This document shows, one piece after another, positions 13,339 to 19,793 of a DNA stretch of 42,774 nucleotides (the stretch's first letter is position 1; the number at the start of each line of letters is the position of its first letter). The notes under the pieces are model-generated. The model saw only the letters and a list, made by a program, of their open reading frames with translations. It was not told the DNA's origin and searched no databases. The translations under genes were made by a program, and so were the position numbers. The stretch lies in assembly GCA_945883755.1 (NCBI GenBank), contig CAMCXX010000002.1:1-42774 (forward strand). Reading direction: 5' to 3'. The DNA is from Bifidobacterium breve. GTDB lineage: Bacteria; Actinomycetota; Actinomycetes; Nanopelagicales; Nanopelagicaceae.

Positions 13339-14589
13339 ATGAAAGCTAAGAAAATCATTAGCGTGATTTCAAGTTCTGTATTAGCACTTGGATTGGTAAC
13401 CATTCCAGTATCCATTGCTCATGCAAAACCCGTAGAAATCACCTACTCAAACTGGCAGTTCGCTGAGCCAGGTCGTGGCGAAGCACTTCAGAAATTAATT
13501 GATGAATATAATTCAAGTCAAACAAAGATTAAAGTAAAATCAATTTCCTACCCGTACGCAAGTTATTCAACTACCATCTTGACTCAACTTGGCGCACGGT
13601 CCGGGCCTGACGTTGTAAATTTTGACTACGACGTTTTCTTAAGAGCTAACCAGGCTCGATTGGTTTCTGCATTGCCAGCAATCAAAGCTCCAAAAGCTGG
13701 ATTTGCTTCATATGATAAGAACTACATCAAGTCCGGTAAGCGATACGGCGTAACTTGGCAAAGCACCGGCTACTCTCTTATTTGCAATAAGAAATTACTA
13801 GCCGCTGCTAACCTTACTTGTCCAAAAACTTACGATGATTTCAAGGCAGCAGCAGCTGCTACTACAAATGGAACCACTCAATACGGTTTTGCATTTAGAA
13901 ATACAATGACTCAAACCAGCGGATGGTGGTTCGACCTAAGTAACTTCGTCTTCGGTTTCGGTGGTCGTTGGACAGATGCAAAAGGTAATCCAACAATTAA
14001 CTCTGCCCTAGTGCAAAAAGCTGTAACTGAGTACAAGGACTTCTTTGACAAGAAGTACATTCCTCAGGGACTAACTGCGACTGAATACCGTCGTTTGTTC
14101 TGGGAAGAGAAAATTGCTATGACCCTTGATAATGGATCTTTGCCAACAGTTTATACAACAGGCAATCCAGCTATTAAGGATAATCTTGTGATTGAAAAAT
14201 CTCCTTTCCCTAAGGATGCAAACGCTCAAATCTTGATCGGCACCCATATCAATGCAAATAGTAAGAAGCAAAAAGAGGCTGCAGCATTTATAAGCTGGCT
14301 AGTCACCGATGCTACTCAAGCAAAGATTATGGAAGCTATGACTGCGGAGGCTGCTGCTACTAAAAAAGCTCCACCACCAGCACTTGTAGCAAGAGCACCT
14401 TGGCTAAAGGATTTCCAAAAATATGCACCAAACGGGATTTTGGTTCTTCCTCAAGGCGCTGAACTAGCGACTGAAGAGATCAGAACCATTGTTCTCACCC
14501 AAGTTGACAAAATGCTTCGATCTGGAGTTTCAGTGAAGGATGGACTCGACGCGGCGCAAAAATCAGTAAAGGAACTCCTAGGTAAGTAA
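13339..14589 (+). CDS. sugar ABC transporter substrate-binding protein without lipobox
   Basis: A 416-residue family-1 solute-binding protein (MalE-like). The N-terminus has basic residues, a hydrophobic core and a signal-peptidase-I-like AHA|K site near residue 29, but no lipobox cysteine, unlike the first binding protein. The mature start, VEITYSNWQFAEPGRGEAL, resembles MalE-like oligosaccharide or glycoside binders. A strong AAGGAGAG precedes the ATG. It is followed by a perfect terminator hairpin and two permease genes. The ligand is unknown; neighbours (P450, enolase-superfamily gene) give only weak hints. If monoderm, the cell would need another way of retaining this protein. Confidence 0.87.
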   Translation: MKAKKIISVISSSVLALGLVTIPVSIAHAKPVEITYSNWQFAEPGRGEALQKLIDEYNSSQTKIKVKSISYPYASYSTTILTQLGARSGPDVVNFDYDVFLRANQARLVSALPAIKAPKAGFASYDKNYIKSGKRYGVTWQSTGYSLICNKKLLAAANLTCPKTYDDFKAAAAATTNGTTQYGFAFRNTMTQTSGWWFDLSNFVFGFGGRWTDAKGNPTINSALVQKAVTEYKDFFDKKYIPQGLTATEYRRLFWEEKIAMTLDNGSLPTVYTTGNPAIKDNLVIEKSPFPKDANAQILIGTHINANSKKQKEAAAFISWLVTDATQAKIMEAMTAEAAATKKAPPPALVARAPWLKDFQKYAPNGILVLPQGAELATEEIRTIVLTQVDKMLRSGVSVKDGLDAAQKSVKELLGK

Positions 14590-14600
14590 GTAAGAAAAAC

Positions 14601-14637
14601 TAAGGTGGGGTATTGAAAAATACCCCACCTTATTTCT
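14601..14637 (+). terminator. Rho-independent terminator/attenuator after the second binding-protein gene
   Basis: A perfect 14-bp stem (14601-14614 with 14619-14632) closes a GAAA tetraloop and is followed by TTTCT. As in the first importer, it separates the binding-protein gene from the permeases. Confidence 0.9.
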
Positions 14638-14656
14638 AGTCAGAGAGGTTGGTATC

Positions 14657-15538
14657 TTGAGAGTTTCACCGAAGTTAACCAATTGGTTTCTGCTTGGACC
14701 AGCATTCTTTTTCTTAGCAATAATTTTAGGTTTTCCACTATTACGAGGACTCCAACTCAGCTTTACTGAGACAAACACTCTCAATCCAAATGAAAGTACA
14801 TATGTTGGCCTAGATAACTACACAAATCTTTTTTCCTCTTCAAGTTTTTTGCCTGCTTTAATGGTAACCATTACTTATGCATCATTGGCTGTAATCGGAG
14901 CTTTAATTGTTGGAATGACTACTGCATTGATAATGAATCGCACCGCTGCCTCAAAATTTTGGGTGAGAACCTTTGTCACATTGCCTTGGGCCGCCCCTCC
15001 TGTAGCCGTTGCGCTGATCTTTTTGTGGATATTTAATCCACAAAATGGTGTTGCAAACTATGCATTGCGGGTTCTGGGTCTAGGAGGGAATGGAACTCAG
15101 TGGTTTAGTAACCCATCCTTAGCTATGCCAGCGCTTTTAGCTGTCACAATCTGGATGACTTTCCCATTAACAAGTTTAATTTTTTTAGCTGCACTTCAGT
15201 CAGTTCCAAAGGAGCTCAGTGAATCTGCCATGATTGATGGTGCCTCATCTCGAAAAATTCTTTGGCACGTTACTTTTCCGATTATTAAGCCAACCATTTA
15301 TGTAATGACACTTCTACTCTCTATTTGGGCGTTGAGACGTTTTGATATTATTTGGATTCTTACCGAAGGTGGGCCAGTTGAGAAAACAACTACCCTGGTT
15401 ATTAAGTTATACCGAGAGGCTTTCTCATACTCCCGGTTGGGTTCTTCAGCTGCCATTGGAATGATCGGTTTCGTATTCTCAGTCCTGCTTACTTTCTTTT
15501 ACTTCAAAGCTAATAAAAAAGCAGAAGAGGCGATGTAA
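14657..15538 (+). CDS. sugar ABC transporter permease, MalF type (importer 2)
   Basis: A 293-residue membrane permease with about six hydrophobic helices. The EAA-type loop reads ESAMIDGASSRKILWHVTFP near residue 191. The TTG start at 14657 follows an AGAGG-like site 7-8 nt upstream, and no later start keeps the first helix intact. Its stop codon overlaps the next ATG by one base. It is the partner of the following MalG-type permease. No ATPase is nearby. Confidence 0.88.
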   Translation: MRVSPKLTNWFLLGPAFFFLAIILGFPLLRGLQLSFTETNTLNPNESTYVGLDNYTNLFSSSSFLPALMVTITYASLAVIGALIVGMTTALIMNRTAASKFWVRTFVTLPWAAPPVAVALIFLWIFNPQNGVANYALRVLGLGGNGTQWFSNPSLAMPALLAVTIWMTFPLTSLIFLAALQSVPKELSESAMIDGASSRKILWHVTFPIIKPTIYVMTLLLSIWALRRFDIIWILTEGGPVEKTTTLVIKLYREAFSYSRLGSSAAIGMIGFVFSVLLTFFYFKANKKAEEAM

Positions 15539-16380
15539 TGAGTAAATTAACTATTACCAAAAGAATTCGAAATATCCCTATTCAATTACTAGTCATCCTG
15601 ATCTCTTTTATTGCGGTTTTTCCAATTTATTGGATGTTCAATACCGCATTGACCACCACTAGTGAGATGTTCTTAGAAAAACCTAAACTTTGGCCAAACA
15701 GTTTGTCCTTAGGCGGATTTGCAGATGTATTTGATGAACTTGAAATTGCGCTGTGGGTCAAAAATACTTTTGTTATAGCTTTAGGATCAACGGTAATGAG
15801 TTTACTTCTAGCTATATTTGCCGCTTACGGATTATCCAGGAGAAAGTTTTACGGCAAAGGATTTTTTGGCTTTATTCTTTTTGCAACACAAATGCTTCCA
15901 GAGGCCTTATTAGTAGTGCCGCTTTATGCTGTGTTTATCAAGTTAAGTTTGATTAACAGTTTGACTGGTCTGGTTATTGTAAATACTGCATTTGTCATGC
16001 CAATTGTGATTTGGGTGTTAAAAGGGGCGATTGATAGTGTTCCGTATGAATTAGAGCAGGCTGCATTAATTGATGGATGTTCAGTTTTTCAGATTCAACG
16101 GTTAATAATTTGGCCTTTGATCGCACCATCTATTGTGGCTTCGGCAGTATTAGCCTTTTTTCATGGCTGGAATGAGTATCTATTCGCGACAACCTTTATT
16201 CTCGATAGTGCAAAGCGTCCGGCCTCAACCGGTCTTGCAACTGTGTTGGGCGAGCTAGCAACTGATCTAGAGGTTGTTATGGCAGGTGCAATTCTTTATA
16301 CAGTTCCACCAATTATATTTTTTATGCTTATTCAAAAGAGAATTGTTGCTGGACTGGCAAGCGGTGCAGTAAAAGGTTAA
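15538..16380 (+). CDS. sugar ABC transporter permease, MalG type (importer 2)
   Basis: A 280-residue permease whose ATG overlaps the stop of its partner (TAATG). The EAA motif is EQAALIDGCSVFQIQRLIIWP near residue 174, and the C-terminus is AGLASGAVKG as in CUT1 permeases. Six membrane helices are apparent. It ends one base before the convergent P450 gene, and no terminator can be seen between them, so transcripts from the two sides may run into each other. Confidence 0.89.
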   Translation: MSKLTITKRIRNIPIQLLVILISFIAVFPIYWMFNTALTTTSEMFLEKPKLWPNSLSLGGFADVFDELEIALWVKNTFVIALGSTVMSLLLAIFAAYGLSRRKFYGKGFFGFILFATQMLPEALLVVPLYAVFIKLSLINSLTGLVIVNTAFVMPIVIWVLKGAIDSVPYELEQAALIDGCSVFQIQRLIIWPLIAPSIVASAVLAFFHGWNEYLFATTFILDSAKRPASTGLATVLGELATDLEVVMAGAILYTVPPIIFFMLIQKRIVAGLASGAVKG

Positions 16381-16381
16381 T

Positions 16382-17557
16382 TTAAAAGGTGATAACCATT
16401 TTGGTTGGACCGGTATTGCCACTATCTGGCAGGTAGGTATCTCCTGGAGCAACCCGCATGTTAGGTAGTCGAGTAGCAAGGGCTTTGAATGCCTCTTTCA
16501 TATCTAATCTTGCAACGTAGTGACCGATGCAATGGTGCATTCCACCACCAAAACCAAAGTGTGGAGCGCGCTCGGCAGTTATATCAAACTCATTATTAAC
16601 AAACTTTCTCGGATCACTGCCAGCTGGAATAGTTAATAAATGAATAGTTGTTCCCGCTTTAATTGTTAACTCTTTGTACTCGATATCAACAGATGCCTCA
16701 CGGGATACCCAAGTGATTGTGGGGTTTACTCTCATGATCTCCTCCACCGCCACACGTGCCAAATCTGGATTTTCTCCAAGCAACTCCCATTGTTTTGGAT
16801 GATTTGAAAAGGTCTTAATTCCTAAGCCAATTTGATTTCGGGTTGTATCAAAGCCGGCAAATATCAAAAGCGAGACCAGCGAGAGTAGCTCCTCATCGGT
16901 GATTGCTTTTCCATCCAAGGTTGCTTTTAGAAGTGTTCCGACAAAATCATCCTTGGCGCTAAGCCGGCTTTTTTGGATTAACTCACTTGAGATATCTAAG
17001 ATACCTTGCAATCCCGCTTCAATTAAAGGCAAATCCTCTTTAATAGTTACGCTAAAAACATAACCAAGATTGGTTGCTAAATCAGCGACTTTTGGCCATA
17101 ACTCATTATCTAAACCTAATAATCCAGTAATTACTCTGGCGGAGAATGGTTCAGCAAACTCGCTCATGAATTCACAGCTGCCTTTATCAATAAAGTTATC
17201 GATTAACTCATTAGCAAGGGCTGCAAAAAACGGCGCCAGTGGTTCGATAGTTTTTGGCGAAAAAGCAGGACCTGCCAATTTCCGAAGTCGCAGATGATCT
17301 TCGCCCTCAACACTTAGTAGCATTTTTTGCCACCAATCAGCTAACAAACCATCCTTAATCCCATAATGAGATGGCCATTTTCGAGTTCCCTGAAAGAGTC
17401 TTTTATCTTTTAATAAATTGTTGGCATCCTCATAACGTAAAACTGCGATTCCAAATGGAGTGGTTGCATGCCAATTACTTTCACGCGCATCCATAACCTG
17501 ATCAGATCGGATTGAAAACCCCGGCTGATTAAAATCTAGAAAGGCAGTTTTTTTCAC
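16382..17557 (-). CDS. cytochrome P450, translated from directly behind a tRNA
   Basis: A 391-residue soluble bacterial P450 of normal length. The I-helix oxygen-activation motif AGFDTT is at 234-239, the K-helix ExxR at Glu273-Arg276, and the heme-ligand loop FGFGGGMHHCIG has Cys343. It needs redox partners (ferredoxin and reductase), none of which is adjacent. The GTG start at 17557 lies one base after the discriminator base of the tRNA, leaving no room for a ribosome-binding site; the first in-frame ATG (residue 22) would cut into the conserved N-terminal block. The oxidised substrate is unknown. Position beside the second importer may mean a transported or sugar-linked substrate, but this is only inference. 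Confidence 0.9.
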   Translation of the reverse strand: MKKTAFLDFNQPGFSIRSDQVMDARESNWHATTPFGIAVLRYEDANNLLKDKRLFQGTRKWPSHYGIKDGLLADWWQKMLLSVEGEDHLRLRKLAGPAFSPKTIEPLAPFFAALANELIDNFIDKGSCEFMSEFAEPFSARVITGLLGLDNELWPKVADLATNLGYVFSVTIKEDLPLIEAGLQGILDISSELIQKSRLSAKDDFVGTLLKATLDGKAITDEELLSLVSLLIFAGFDTTRNQIGLGIKTFSNHPKQWELLGENPDLARVAVEEIMRVNPTITWVSREASVDIEYKELTIKAGTTIHLLTIPAGSDPRKFVNNEFDITAERAPHFGFGGGMHHCIGHYVARLDMKEAFKALATRLPNMRVAPGDTYLPDSGNTGPTKMVITF

Positions 17558-17558
17558 G

Positions 17559-17632
17559 TGGGGCGAGTAGGGCTCGAACCTACGACGACCGGATTATGAG
17601 TCCGGGGCTCTAACCAACTGAGCTATCGCCCC
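17559..17632 (-). tRNA. tRNA with CAT anticodon (elongator Met, or Ile2)
   Basis: Leftward 74-nt cloverleaf. Acceptor stem GGGGCGA/TCGCCCC with discriminator A, D-arm AGCTCAGTTGGTTAGAGC, anticodon stem CCGGA/TCCGG around loop CTCATAA (anticodon CAT), T-arm GTAGG TTCGAGC CCTAC. The 3' CCA is not encoded. The D-arm differs from initiator tRNAs, so this is an elongator Met tRNA or the lysidine-modified Ile2 tRNA, which share this anticodon. Confidence 0.93.
17604..17632 (-). repeat. repeat copy 1 (5' part of the CAT tRNA), att-like
   Basis: These 29 bp of the intact tRNA gene (5' acceptor strand, D-arm and start of the anticodon stem) recur at 19034-19062 in the same orientation with one mismatch (C versus T). 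The pair flanks one gene. Confidence 0.85.
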
Positions 17633-17645
17633 TTGTACTTCACAT

Positions 17646-17651
17646 TCTATA
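17646..17651 (-). promoter_or_regulatory. -10 box of the tRNA (and probably P450) promoter
   Basis: Leftward TATAGA ends 13 nt before the 5' end of the tRNA, giving a short 5' leader for RNase P. No strong -35 is visible. Since no other promoter precedes the P450 gene, this one probably serves both. Confidence 0.45.
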
Positions 17652-17676
17652 AGACCGCCTTACTATGACCGAAAAA

Positions 17677-17690
17677 CTGCTAATTAGCAG
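17677..17690. promoter_or_regulatory. 14-bp perfect palindrome upstream of the CAT tRNA
   Basis: CTGCTAATTAGCAG is a perfect palindrome about 26 bp upstream of the tRNA -10 box. The remaining sequence to 17893 (about 200 bp) holds no convincing gene; it may contain the promoter of the enolase-superfamily gene. An octamer ATTAGCAG from this palindrome also occurs just beyond the second tRNA-derived repeat. Confidence 0.35.
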
Positions 17691-17893
17691 CCAGCCCAGT
17701 TGAATTATAGAACAGCGCGACCTGCTCTACTGGCCTTATAACCGAGCCTGATTCAGACCTTACATATGGAAGTGAACTTTCGAGGGGGATACTTTCATAG
17801 GGATTTGAAATAGACTAGAAGTCAGAGATTTCGATACGGTGCAATTAGATCGTTTCAACTCTTTTTGTCAGCGAATTGAACGGAGTCCCGCCG

Positions 17894-19033
17894 GTGAAGG
17901 TTGTAAGCCTTGAAACTTTTATCGTAAATGTTCCTTACAAGCGAACAGAGGTTAGCTCAGTTGTTTTTCGAAGCGGTGTCACATCAGTGATCATAAAGCT
18001 AACGACCGATAATGGAGTTGTTGGCTGGGGAGAGGCTTGTTCTGGCGCTGATGTTTATTCGATAGAAGCTGCCATTAAGGCAATGTTTCCGTTTATCGAA
18101 GGTAAATCGCCATGGAATTCTGCAGAGTTAAGGCGAGATGCATTTCATCGTGGTCTTTGGGCCTATCGCGTATCGACAGGTAATTTTGCATGGGCAGCAA
18201 TTGATATGGCGCTCTGGGATATCTGCGGAAAAAGCGCAAATTTGCCAGTTTATAAATTGCTTGGAGGAGCAGTTAGGTCAGAAGTGGATTATTTCTTCTA
18301 CCTGGGTCATGGAACTACTTCAGACATTGCCGCACAATGCGCTGAAGGAATGAGCTTCGGCTATGAAACTTACTACTTAAAAACTGGAATTGACATTGAA
18401 CGTGAATTGGAAATGGTTGCAACAATTAGGGAAGCTATCGGGCCTAAGAATCGCATACGTTTGGATTCAAATGGTGCGTGGTCCCTTCAAGATGCTCCAA
18501 GAAACTTAAAAAAATTTGAGCGTTACGATATTGATTTTATTGAGCAGCCAGTTCCCGAAAACCCAATGTCACTTATGGCAAATTTACGCAGCAAAACCTC
18601 GATCCCGCTTGCGGCAAATGAGGGCCTGTGGAGCGAAGAGGATGCTAATCGATTGATTATGAATCAAGTTGCGGATGTTTATACTTTTTCACCATACTGG
18701 GTCGGAACTCTTGAAAAATTCAAACAAGTTTCATATGTGGCTAATGTTATGGGAAGTAAGGTTTGCCGACATACTCACGGTGAAATGGGAGTAGCAGCAA
18801 CAGCTTTTCATCACGCAAGTTTGACAATATCTAATTTGGTTTTGGGCAATCAACAGACGGCGGCTCACATAGAGGGTGATATCTTGGAGACCGAAATTCC
18901 GATTTCGAAATCACCAAAATGGGGATTACCAGAAGGCGCTGGGCTTGGATTTGCAATTAATGAGCAGGCTCTTTCCATAGGAGTAAGTAGATTTGCAAAA
19001 GAGGGACAGTATTTTCCGTATGGACAGATCTAA
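17894..19033 (+). CDS. enolase-superfamily enzyme, mandelate racemase/MLE-like, probable sugar-acid dehydratase
   Basis: A protein of about 379 residues with the enolase-superfamily capping domain and barrel. Metal ligands are Asp191 (RLDSNG), Glu217 (FIEQP) and Glu243 (AANEG). The base on the second barrel strand is reduced to one lysine, Lys163 (YYLKTG), the other KxK position being Tyr161. His293/His295 and Glu297 (CRHTHGE) are candidates for the opposite-face acid/base. This pattern fits acid-sugar dehydratases better than cycloisomerases, but the substrate is open. I prefer GTG 17894 because a GGAG ends 8 nt before it; a TTG at 17876 is in frame but has no such site. The gene stands alone between the two tRNA-derived repeats. 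It might supply the dehydratase missing from the 4.5-11.7 kb operon. Confidence 0.83.
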   Translation: MKVVSLETFIVNVPYKRTEVSSVVFRSGVTSVIIKLTTDNGVVGWGEACSGADVYSIEAAIKAMFPFIEGKSPWNSAELRRDAFHRGLWAYRVSTGNFAWAAIDMALWDICGKSANLPVYKLLGGAVRSEVDYFFYLGHGTTSDIAAQCAEGMSFGYETYYLKTGIDIERELEMVATIREAIGPKNRIRLDSNGAWSLQDAPRNLKKFERYDIDFIEQPVPENPMSLMANLRSKTSIPLAANEGLWSEEDANRLIMNQVADVYTFSPYWVGTLEKFKQVSYVANVMGSKVCRHTHGEMGVAATAFHHASLTISNLVLGNQQTAAHIEGDILETEIPISKSPKWGLPEGAGLGFAINEQALSIGVSRFAKEGQYFPYGQI

Positions 19034-19062
19034 GGGGTTCTAACCAACTGAGCTATCGCCCC
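19034..19062 (-). repeat. repeat copy 2, tRNA 5' fragment (att-like scar)
   Basis: A leftward copy of the tRNA 5' end, acceptor strand plus D-arm, matching 17604-17632 at 28 of 29 positions. The sequence beyond it does not continue as a tRNA: no anticodon or T-arm follows, so it is a fragment, not a gene. It begins right after the stop of the enolase-superfamily gene. Confidence 0.85.
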
Positions 19063-19166
19063 CATTATTAGCAGGTGCGTATGCCTTACACCCTCTTGAT
19101 CCTGATGATTTGATCAGAATATGCAGTTTTTTCGATTAACCTCCCGATAGATCAAGATTTTATAAG

Positions 19167-19172
19167 GATAAT
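19167..19172 (+). promoter_or_regulatory. -10 box of a possible leaderless promoter for the M23-like gene
   Basis: GATAAT lies 6 nt before the ATG at 19179, the spacing expected for a leaderless mRNA. TATAAG (19161-19166) next to it is an alternative -10. No clear -35 is seen. Confidence 0.35.
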
Positions 19173-19178
19173 CGCGGT

Positions 19179-19793
19179 ATGAAATTACTTCGAGTATTAG
19201 CCTTATCAATAATAATTCCAACTCAATTATTAATTTTTACGCCGCCCGCTACTGCTGCACCAATCTATGTATTTCCGATTACTAATTGTGTGGCTACCTA
19301 TGGCAAGTACCATCACAATTACCCAGCCACCGACATTAATACAAAAAGAGGATGTGCATTTGTTGCCCCAACTGCAGGAGTAGTAGATGTGGTTTTAGCA
19401 AAGGATGTATGGAGTGGAAAAACAAATTTAGGACAGGATCGTGGCGGCCTAGCTGTTGGAATAATTGGCGATGATGGTGTGCGATATTACGGTTCGCATT
19501 TATCAAAAATCGAGCCTGGAATTGCTGCCGGAGTACGTGTTGCTGCTGGCGCCAAATTAGGAGAGGTTGGAAGTACCGGATCTGCTCGTGGAACTAAACC
19601 ACATCTGCACTTTGGCATCTCATGGCCTACAGATAACAGTGTCTGGTGGGTAAGGCGAGGTGTTGTTGCGCCATGGAAATTTCTAGAGGCGTGGAAAGCT
19701 GGCAAGGATTTATCGCCGGCAAAAGCTGTTAATGCAGCGAAGCTAAGATTAGGTGAAATTCCACCTGAACCAAAAAATGAGGTTAGGAAATAA
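19179..19793 (+). CDS. secreted M23-family metallopeptidase-like protein
   Basis: A 204-residue exported protein. Residues 1-27 form a signal peptide (basic start, hydrophobic core, ATAA cleavage region). The body is a LytM/M23 fold: a zinc-site region YHHNYPATDINTKRG, then FVAPTAGVVDVV, and the His-x-His motif PHLHFG near residue 145. The first zinc-ligand block is HHNYPATD rather than the standard HxxxD, a spacing variant to note when judging activity. Such enzymes cut peptide cross-links in peptidoglycan during growth or division. It is a single-gene unit between the tRNA-derived repeat and a bidirectional terminator. Confidence 0.83.
   Translation: MKLLRVLALSIIIPTQLLIFTPPATAAPIYVFPITNCVATYGKYHHNYPATDINTKRGCAFVAPTAGVVDVVLAKDVWSGKTNLGQDRGGLAVGIIGDDGVRYYGSHLSKIEPGIAAGVRVAAGAKLGEVGSTGSARGTKPHLHFGISWPTDNSVWWVRRGVVAPWKFLEAWKAGKDLSPAKAVNAAKLRLGEIPPEPKNEVRK

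Follow-up and report, generated by a model that had tools for sequence, protein, structure and literature searches.

A single-gene insertion at the 5' half of tRNA-Met, a probable decayed integrative island in a genome-streamlined bacterium

Islands that integrate at tRNA genes usually replace the 3' half of the gene, and the host promoter stays in charge. Mycobacteriophage cores typically take in the tRNA 3' half (PMC10865867), and according to a review bacterial tRNAs retain their promoter with very few exceptions (PMC8371274). The configuration filter of Islander discards 5' fragments located downstream and 3' fragments located upstream, and consequently admits 5' fragments upstream (PMC4383910). 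For the Thermococcales element pTN3 the attB site is the tRNA 5' half, with a 41-bp core common to attP and attB (PMC5495485); the tRNA is rebuilt but parted from its original promoter, and the integrase gene overlaps the att site (PMC5495485; PMC8371274). Integration into a tRNA 5' half is rare but established, being represented by pTN3 and permitted by Islander. The tycheposons of Prochlorococcus and of freshwater and marine Methylophilaceae combine a tRNA border (tRNA-Met in the Methylophilaceae), a tyrosine recombinase and nutrient-related cargo (PMC10872708). A limited literature search found no description of the site presented below.

The locus described here lies in a window of 42,774 nt, the whole stretch of DNA that was analyzed, from a small freshwater bacterium represented by a single genome assembly of 38 contigs that is 80.8% complete. 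A first-pass annotation, made from the sequence alone, had drawn attention to a repeat of the 5' part of a tRNA gene on either side of a single metabolic gene, and had read the arrangement as the footprint of an integration at the tRNA 5' end.

The interrupted tRNA-Met locus

The repeat is as the first-pass annotation described it: 28 of 29 nt are identical in the two copies, which lie on the same strand at a spacing of 1430 nt (Table 1). It spans tRNA-Met positions 1-29, comprising the 5' strand of the acceptor stem, the D arm and the start of the anticodon stem. An ungapped scan with the 29-nt query over 945 kb of the 998-kb assembly returned the tRNA (29/29) and the copy (28/29), after which no match exceeded 19/29 (same strand) or 20/29 (opposite strand). 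The 29-nt copy is not background, because only two partial tRNA copies exist outside tRNA genes in these 945 kb, which hold 26 tRNA genes, and each of the two lies next to its own parent tRNA.

Table 1. Features of the tRNA-Met locus (coordinates of the window)
Feature	Position	Strand	Basis
Cytochrome P450 gene, adjoining the 3' end of the tRNA	16382..17557	-	ORF, domain search and alignment
Intact tRNA-Met(CAT)	17558..17632	-	ARAGORN and alignment with relatives
tRNA positions 1-29, putative insert-borne 5' part (repeat copy)	17604..17632	-	Repeat; native flank adjoins the other copy
Inserted DNA, 1,401 nt (repeat spacing 1,430 nt)	17633..19033	.	Missing from ten congeneric empty sites
Leader between tRNA and enolase-superfamily gene, divergent intergenic region	17633..17893	.	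Comparison with other loci
Candidate -10 element TAGAAT (tRNA strand), 11 nt upstream of tRNA-Met	17644..17649	-	Sequence, inference only
Enolase-superfamily (MR/MLE) gene, probable start GTG 17894	17876..19033	+	ORF, Pfam and DNA homology
Native 5' part of tRNA-Met in displaced position (repeat copy; tRNA positions 1-29, one substitution)	19034..19062	-	Repeat, relatives' alignment and genome-wide partial-copy survey
Native upstream region of tRNA-Met, now severed from the tRNA	19063..19178	.	Alignment with relatives
M23 peptidase gene, conserved neighbor marking the native site	19179..19793	+	Domain search and family-wide positions

The alignment with relatives that the annotation had proposed, looking for an intact tRNA without the intervening gene, found that situation in ten congeners, in which the intact tRNA-Met lies 98-141 nt from the same M23 peptidase gene and neither insert nor enolase gene is present. 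The sequence past the 29-nt copy in the window resembles the upstream flank of the intact tRNA-Met in congeners, and the conserved core of that flank (GTAAGGTATGACACTMAC, tRNA strand) is altered in the window. Because the native upstream flank continues from the displaced copy, it is this copy that is the native 5' part, and from the empty sites and the position of the native flank it follows that the intact tRNA starts with element-borne sequence. The insert would then have supplied both a replacement tRNA 5' half and a replacement upstream region, which is what the annotation had required of an element using the 5' end as its target, and its reading of an integration footprint there is supported. 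The insert may now drive transcription of tRNA-Met; the putative -10 element in the leader was not reported by a promoter scan.

Both copies in the window have A at tRNA position 7, where all congeners compared have G; the acceptor pair 7:66 of the window tRNA-Met is A:U, and it is G:C in the congeners examined. As A7 is present in both copies, the 5' half of the element matched the window lineage exactly; for an element that has travelled far this would not be a requirement. The shared A7 is a puzzle: gene conversion may have levelled the copies, or else the element had become adapted to the window lineage.

The interval between the copies contains one long gene, encoding an ORF of 385 aa, and no integrase was found in it, in agreement with the annotation. 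Both MR_MLE_N and MR_MLE_C exceed the Pfam cut-off in the product, which places it in the enolase superfamily, as a putative enzyme of the sugar-acid type; its nearest solved structure is 2pgw, and among the NCBIfam equivalogs it scores far below every cut-off, so that the assignment goes to the superfamily and not to a subgroup or substrate. The gene probably starts at GTG 17894, since DNA homology to other family members sets in at about position 17891. Homology to its nearest relatives ends precisely at the stop codon (19031-19033), which is exactly the right edge of the insert and abuts the tRNA fragment. The leader has no match to the other loci compared. It contains a perfect 14-nt palindrome, CTGCTAATTAGCAG, at 17677-17690, a possible regulator site.

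The enolase-superfamily gene is found in 8 of the 296 genomes of the family, representing 4 of its 17 genera. Its closest kin is in another genus of the same family (82% identity), and in the tree the family members cluster together, with moderate support near the window gene (88/85). According to the annotation, an insertion would have been contradicted had every relative carried this gene and this fragment; instead, none of the 24 remaining genomes of the genus contains the gene (E<=1e-40). The comparison of base and codon composition, also proposed by the annotation, was run and helps neither way: the GC content is 43.2% for the insert and 43.0% for the genome, the codon score of the gene is at the 11th percentile, and neither marks the insert as foreign, which is what a gene originating in the family should show.

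On its other side, the 3' flank of tRNA-Met varies among congeners. Sugar-type ABC transporter genes and the P450 gene adjoin the tRNA 3' end in the window (13339-17557), and congeners carry other genes there; a second variable site may exist on that side.

Islands at the same tRNA in other genera

The positions of tRNA-Met and of the M23 gene were combined across the 296 genomes of the family and the regions were then read; an order-level search added no genomes beyond the same 296. Four more tRNA-Met 5'-half fragments are present at the same site, in genomes G074, G139, G236 and G291, which belong to three other genera. The fragment comprises tRNA positions 1-43 in G074 and G291, 4-43 in G139 and 1-41 in G236. 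The order of intact tRNA, cargo, integrase remnant and 5' fragment is complete in G074 (insert of 11.1 kb) and G139 (13.9 kb); G236 and G291 show the fragment end, and the intact tRNA was not found on their contigs. Genomes G239 and G289 have the same flanks as G236 and G291, respectively, next to an intact tRNA, and provide empty-site references. The insertion in the window, the empty sites and the 5' polarity are thus established, and so is the recurrence at this tRNA, with integrase remnants, in three further genera.

These remnants are of tyrosine-integrase type and abut the 5' fragment in all four genomes. The G074 remnant (116 aa) matches PF00589 (Phage_integrase) with an E value of 6e-4, which is below the cut-off, and a PHROG integrase family with an E value of 4e-7. 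A C-terminal piece, clearest in G291, has matches in G139, G236 and G074 with 56-82% identity over 27-43 aa. In all four the integrase frame ends within the tRNA fragment, and in G291 the final residues and the stop codon are tRNA sequence. The C-terminal piece alone is not recognized by Pfam or PHROGs; we take it for integrase because it follows the G074 piece and has a YxH-type motif. The G236 remnant is frameshifted, G139 retains the end only and the G291 remnant runs off the contig. Neither the enolase nor the integrase C-terminus has a relative in viral contigs, and phage records contain no relative of the integrase C-terminus; plasmid records contain distant enolases only, the best among the matches listed being 33% identical.

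Cargo is visible in three of the four islands and is catabolic: two MR/MLE genes in G139, amidohydrolase, dehydrogenase and ABC transporter genes in G074, and a GFO/IDH/MocA oxidoreductase in G236. The annotation had offered a decayed island and a recurrent site for catabolic genes as alternatives, and the 5' fragments and integrase remnants of the four genomes lend support to both. On the other side of tRNA-Met, 3'-half fragments start at position 32-35 (G087 and G226). Because the 5' fragments end at 41-43 and the 3' fragments start at 32-35, the crossover probably took place in or near the anticodon loop. The window has a 5' fragment at the native tRNA-Met position with cargo before the intact tRNA; its fragment stops at position 29, directly against the enolase stop codon, where those of the four islands reach 41-43 and adjoin an integrase C-terminus. 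It is a probable decayed relative of the 5'-half tRNA-Met islands of the family and not a proven member.

Other tRNA-bounded inserts and fragments were also encountered. The window genome has a tRNA-Val(GAC) with a 20-nt copy of its own 3' end 533 nt downstream on the same strand (C3:97579-98204), an insert on the classic 3' side with no integrase and nothing more than a possible frame for a small membrane protein. In genome G087 a 44-nt copy of the tRNA-Met 3' half (positions 32-75) is separated from the tRNA by an insert of about 0.9 kb (C81:1012-2025), which has one ORF of 185 aa without Pfam match and no integrase. In G074, tRNA-Met 3' fragments (C7:62669-62698 and 64304-64346) lie close to the gene next to which the 3' fragment of G087 is situated, and the G074 tRNA-Met appears, judging from these fragments, to have taken islands on both sides. 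A tRNA-Met 5'-half fragment of G074 is found at an unrelated place (C5:35570-35613), near agmatinase-like and ABC permease genes. The window leader resembles the G074 leader near the tRNA (TCTTRTAGARTRTGRAG, tRNA strand), a stretch too short as proof of homology.

Several candidates were set aside. Wide tRNA-Met/M23 gaps in the family (0.4-11.7 kb) are mostly not such insertions, being without a tRNA fragment except in the window and G074; many hold a recurring gene block that we take, by eye, to be carotenoid-like. The partial tRNA of G091 lies beside NN in a scaffold, and those of G052 and G132 are cut by contig ends. The sole viral contig that matches the 5' half was considered as an attP and carries an intact tRNA-Met instead.

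Origin of the insert

The window locus is likely to be a decayed integrative island at a tRNA-Met 5'-half attachment site, reduced to one gene. A tyrosine integrase would have inserted the island into tRNA-Met, with the 5' half of the gene as the attachment site. The element would have brought its own tRNA 5' half and upstream DNA, recombination would have generated an intact tRNA with an element-derived 5' half, and the native 5' half and promoter region would have been pushed away, next to the M23 gene. The integrase gene would have been situated at the far end of the element, running toward and ending inside the displaced fragment as in the relatives, whose integrase lineage the window insert presumably used. 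The integrase end would subsequently have been lost from the window, most likely by a deletion from just past the enolase stop codon to tRNA position 29, which would have removed the integrase and tRNA positions 30-43 and left one catabolic gene. Such a deletion would be the simplest account of what is missing. Counting against a decayed island are the end of the window fragment at position 29, where related fragments reach 41-43, the A7 shared by both copies, the dependence on one incomplete assembly, and the integrase itself, of which no sequence is left in the window and no intact copy of the fragment-abutting kind was found in the 296 genomes.

The lack of an integrase could also be original. 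A minimal one-gene element might never have had its own integrase and might have been integrated in trans by that of a related element, as a satellite-like cassette. The insert is tight, its right edge being the stop codon itself, and the G087 and tRNA-Val(GAC) loci provide two more small integrase-free inserts between a tRNA and its own fragment. However, the integrase remnants at the fragment in all four 5'-side relatives make loss simpler, and a search of the assembly for a helper integrase yielded only two tyrosine recombinases, on contigs C4 and C26, with open frames of 301 and 308 aa, which we take to be the size of chromosomal Xer proteins. We consider such an element unlikely, and we are equally doubtful of the wider proposition that the family keeps a cassette-like system in which trans-acting integrases put very small one-gene inserts, lacking an integrase of their own, at tRNA halves on one side of the gene or the other. 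Were that system real, genes would be gained at almost no extra DNA and the tRNA promoter would be rewired.

It is less probable still that no integrase was involved at all, incoming DNA with a tRNA-Met 5' half having been joined by homologous and illegitimate recombination. Four other genomes that share the tRNA, the side and the polarity, and have integrase remnants, speak against such a capture, even though it would accommodate the missing integrase, a fragment that ends at 29 as opposed to cores of 41-43 nt, and the lineage-specific A7 in both copies, as in a locally generated duplication. The incompleteness of the assembly and its 38 contigs raise the question of an artefact or a chimeric contig, which we regard as very improbable: nothing is broken in the gene, its stop codon, the fragment or the native flank, and they follow one another as expected, the repeat is merely 29 nt long with copies that differ by one base, and the same structure is seen in independent assemblies.

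Comparison with known tRNA-associated elements

If the window locus is a decayed island, then one family of bacteria contains a recurrent site, in five genomes of four genera, at which the 5' half and the promoter region of a tRNA are replaced. This would be a family of genome-streamlined bacteria that keeps catabolic cargo while the integrase decays, a concrete route for very small genomes to acquire single metabolic genes, and a test case for mobile elements taking over tRNA expression.

As in Islander-type tRNA islands, the window has an intact tRNA at one end and a displaced cognate fragment at the other, in the same orientation and on the correct side, and the empty site is present in relatives, here ten congeners. 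The usual core of such islands is the 3' half and the tRNA retains its own promoter, whereas the 5' half is replaced in the window. Islander requires an integrase inside the island; the window copy is without one, and remnants are found in G074, G139, G236 and G291. With pTN3 the window shares a tRNA that, to judge from its flanks, appears to have acquired a new 5' half and to have been parted from its original promoter region. However, pTN3 is archaeal, and its integration disrupts the integrase gene; the window has no integrase, the integrase frame of the relatives merely ends within the core, and the cargo is catabolic. Tycheposons are much larger, at 4-200 kb, and the window insert is without their tyrosine recombinase, but the two have in common streamlined planktonic hosts, a tRNA border and nutrient-related cargo.
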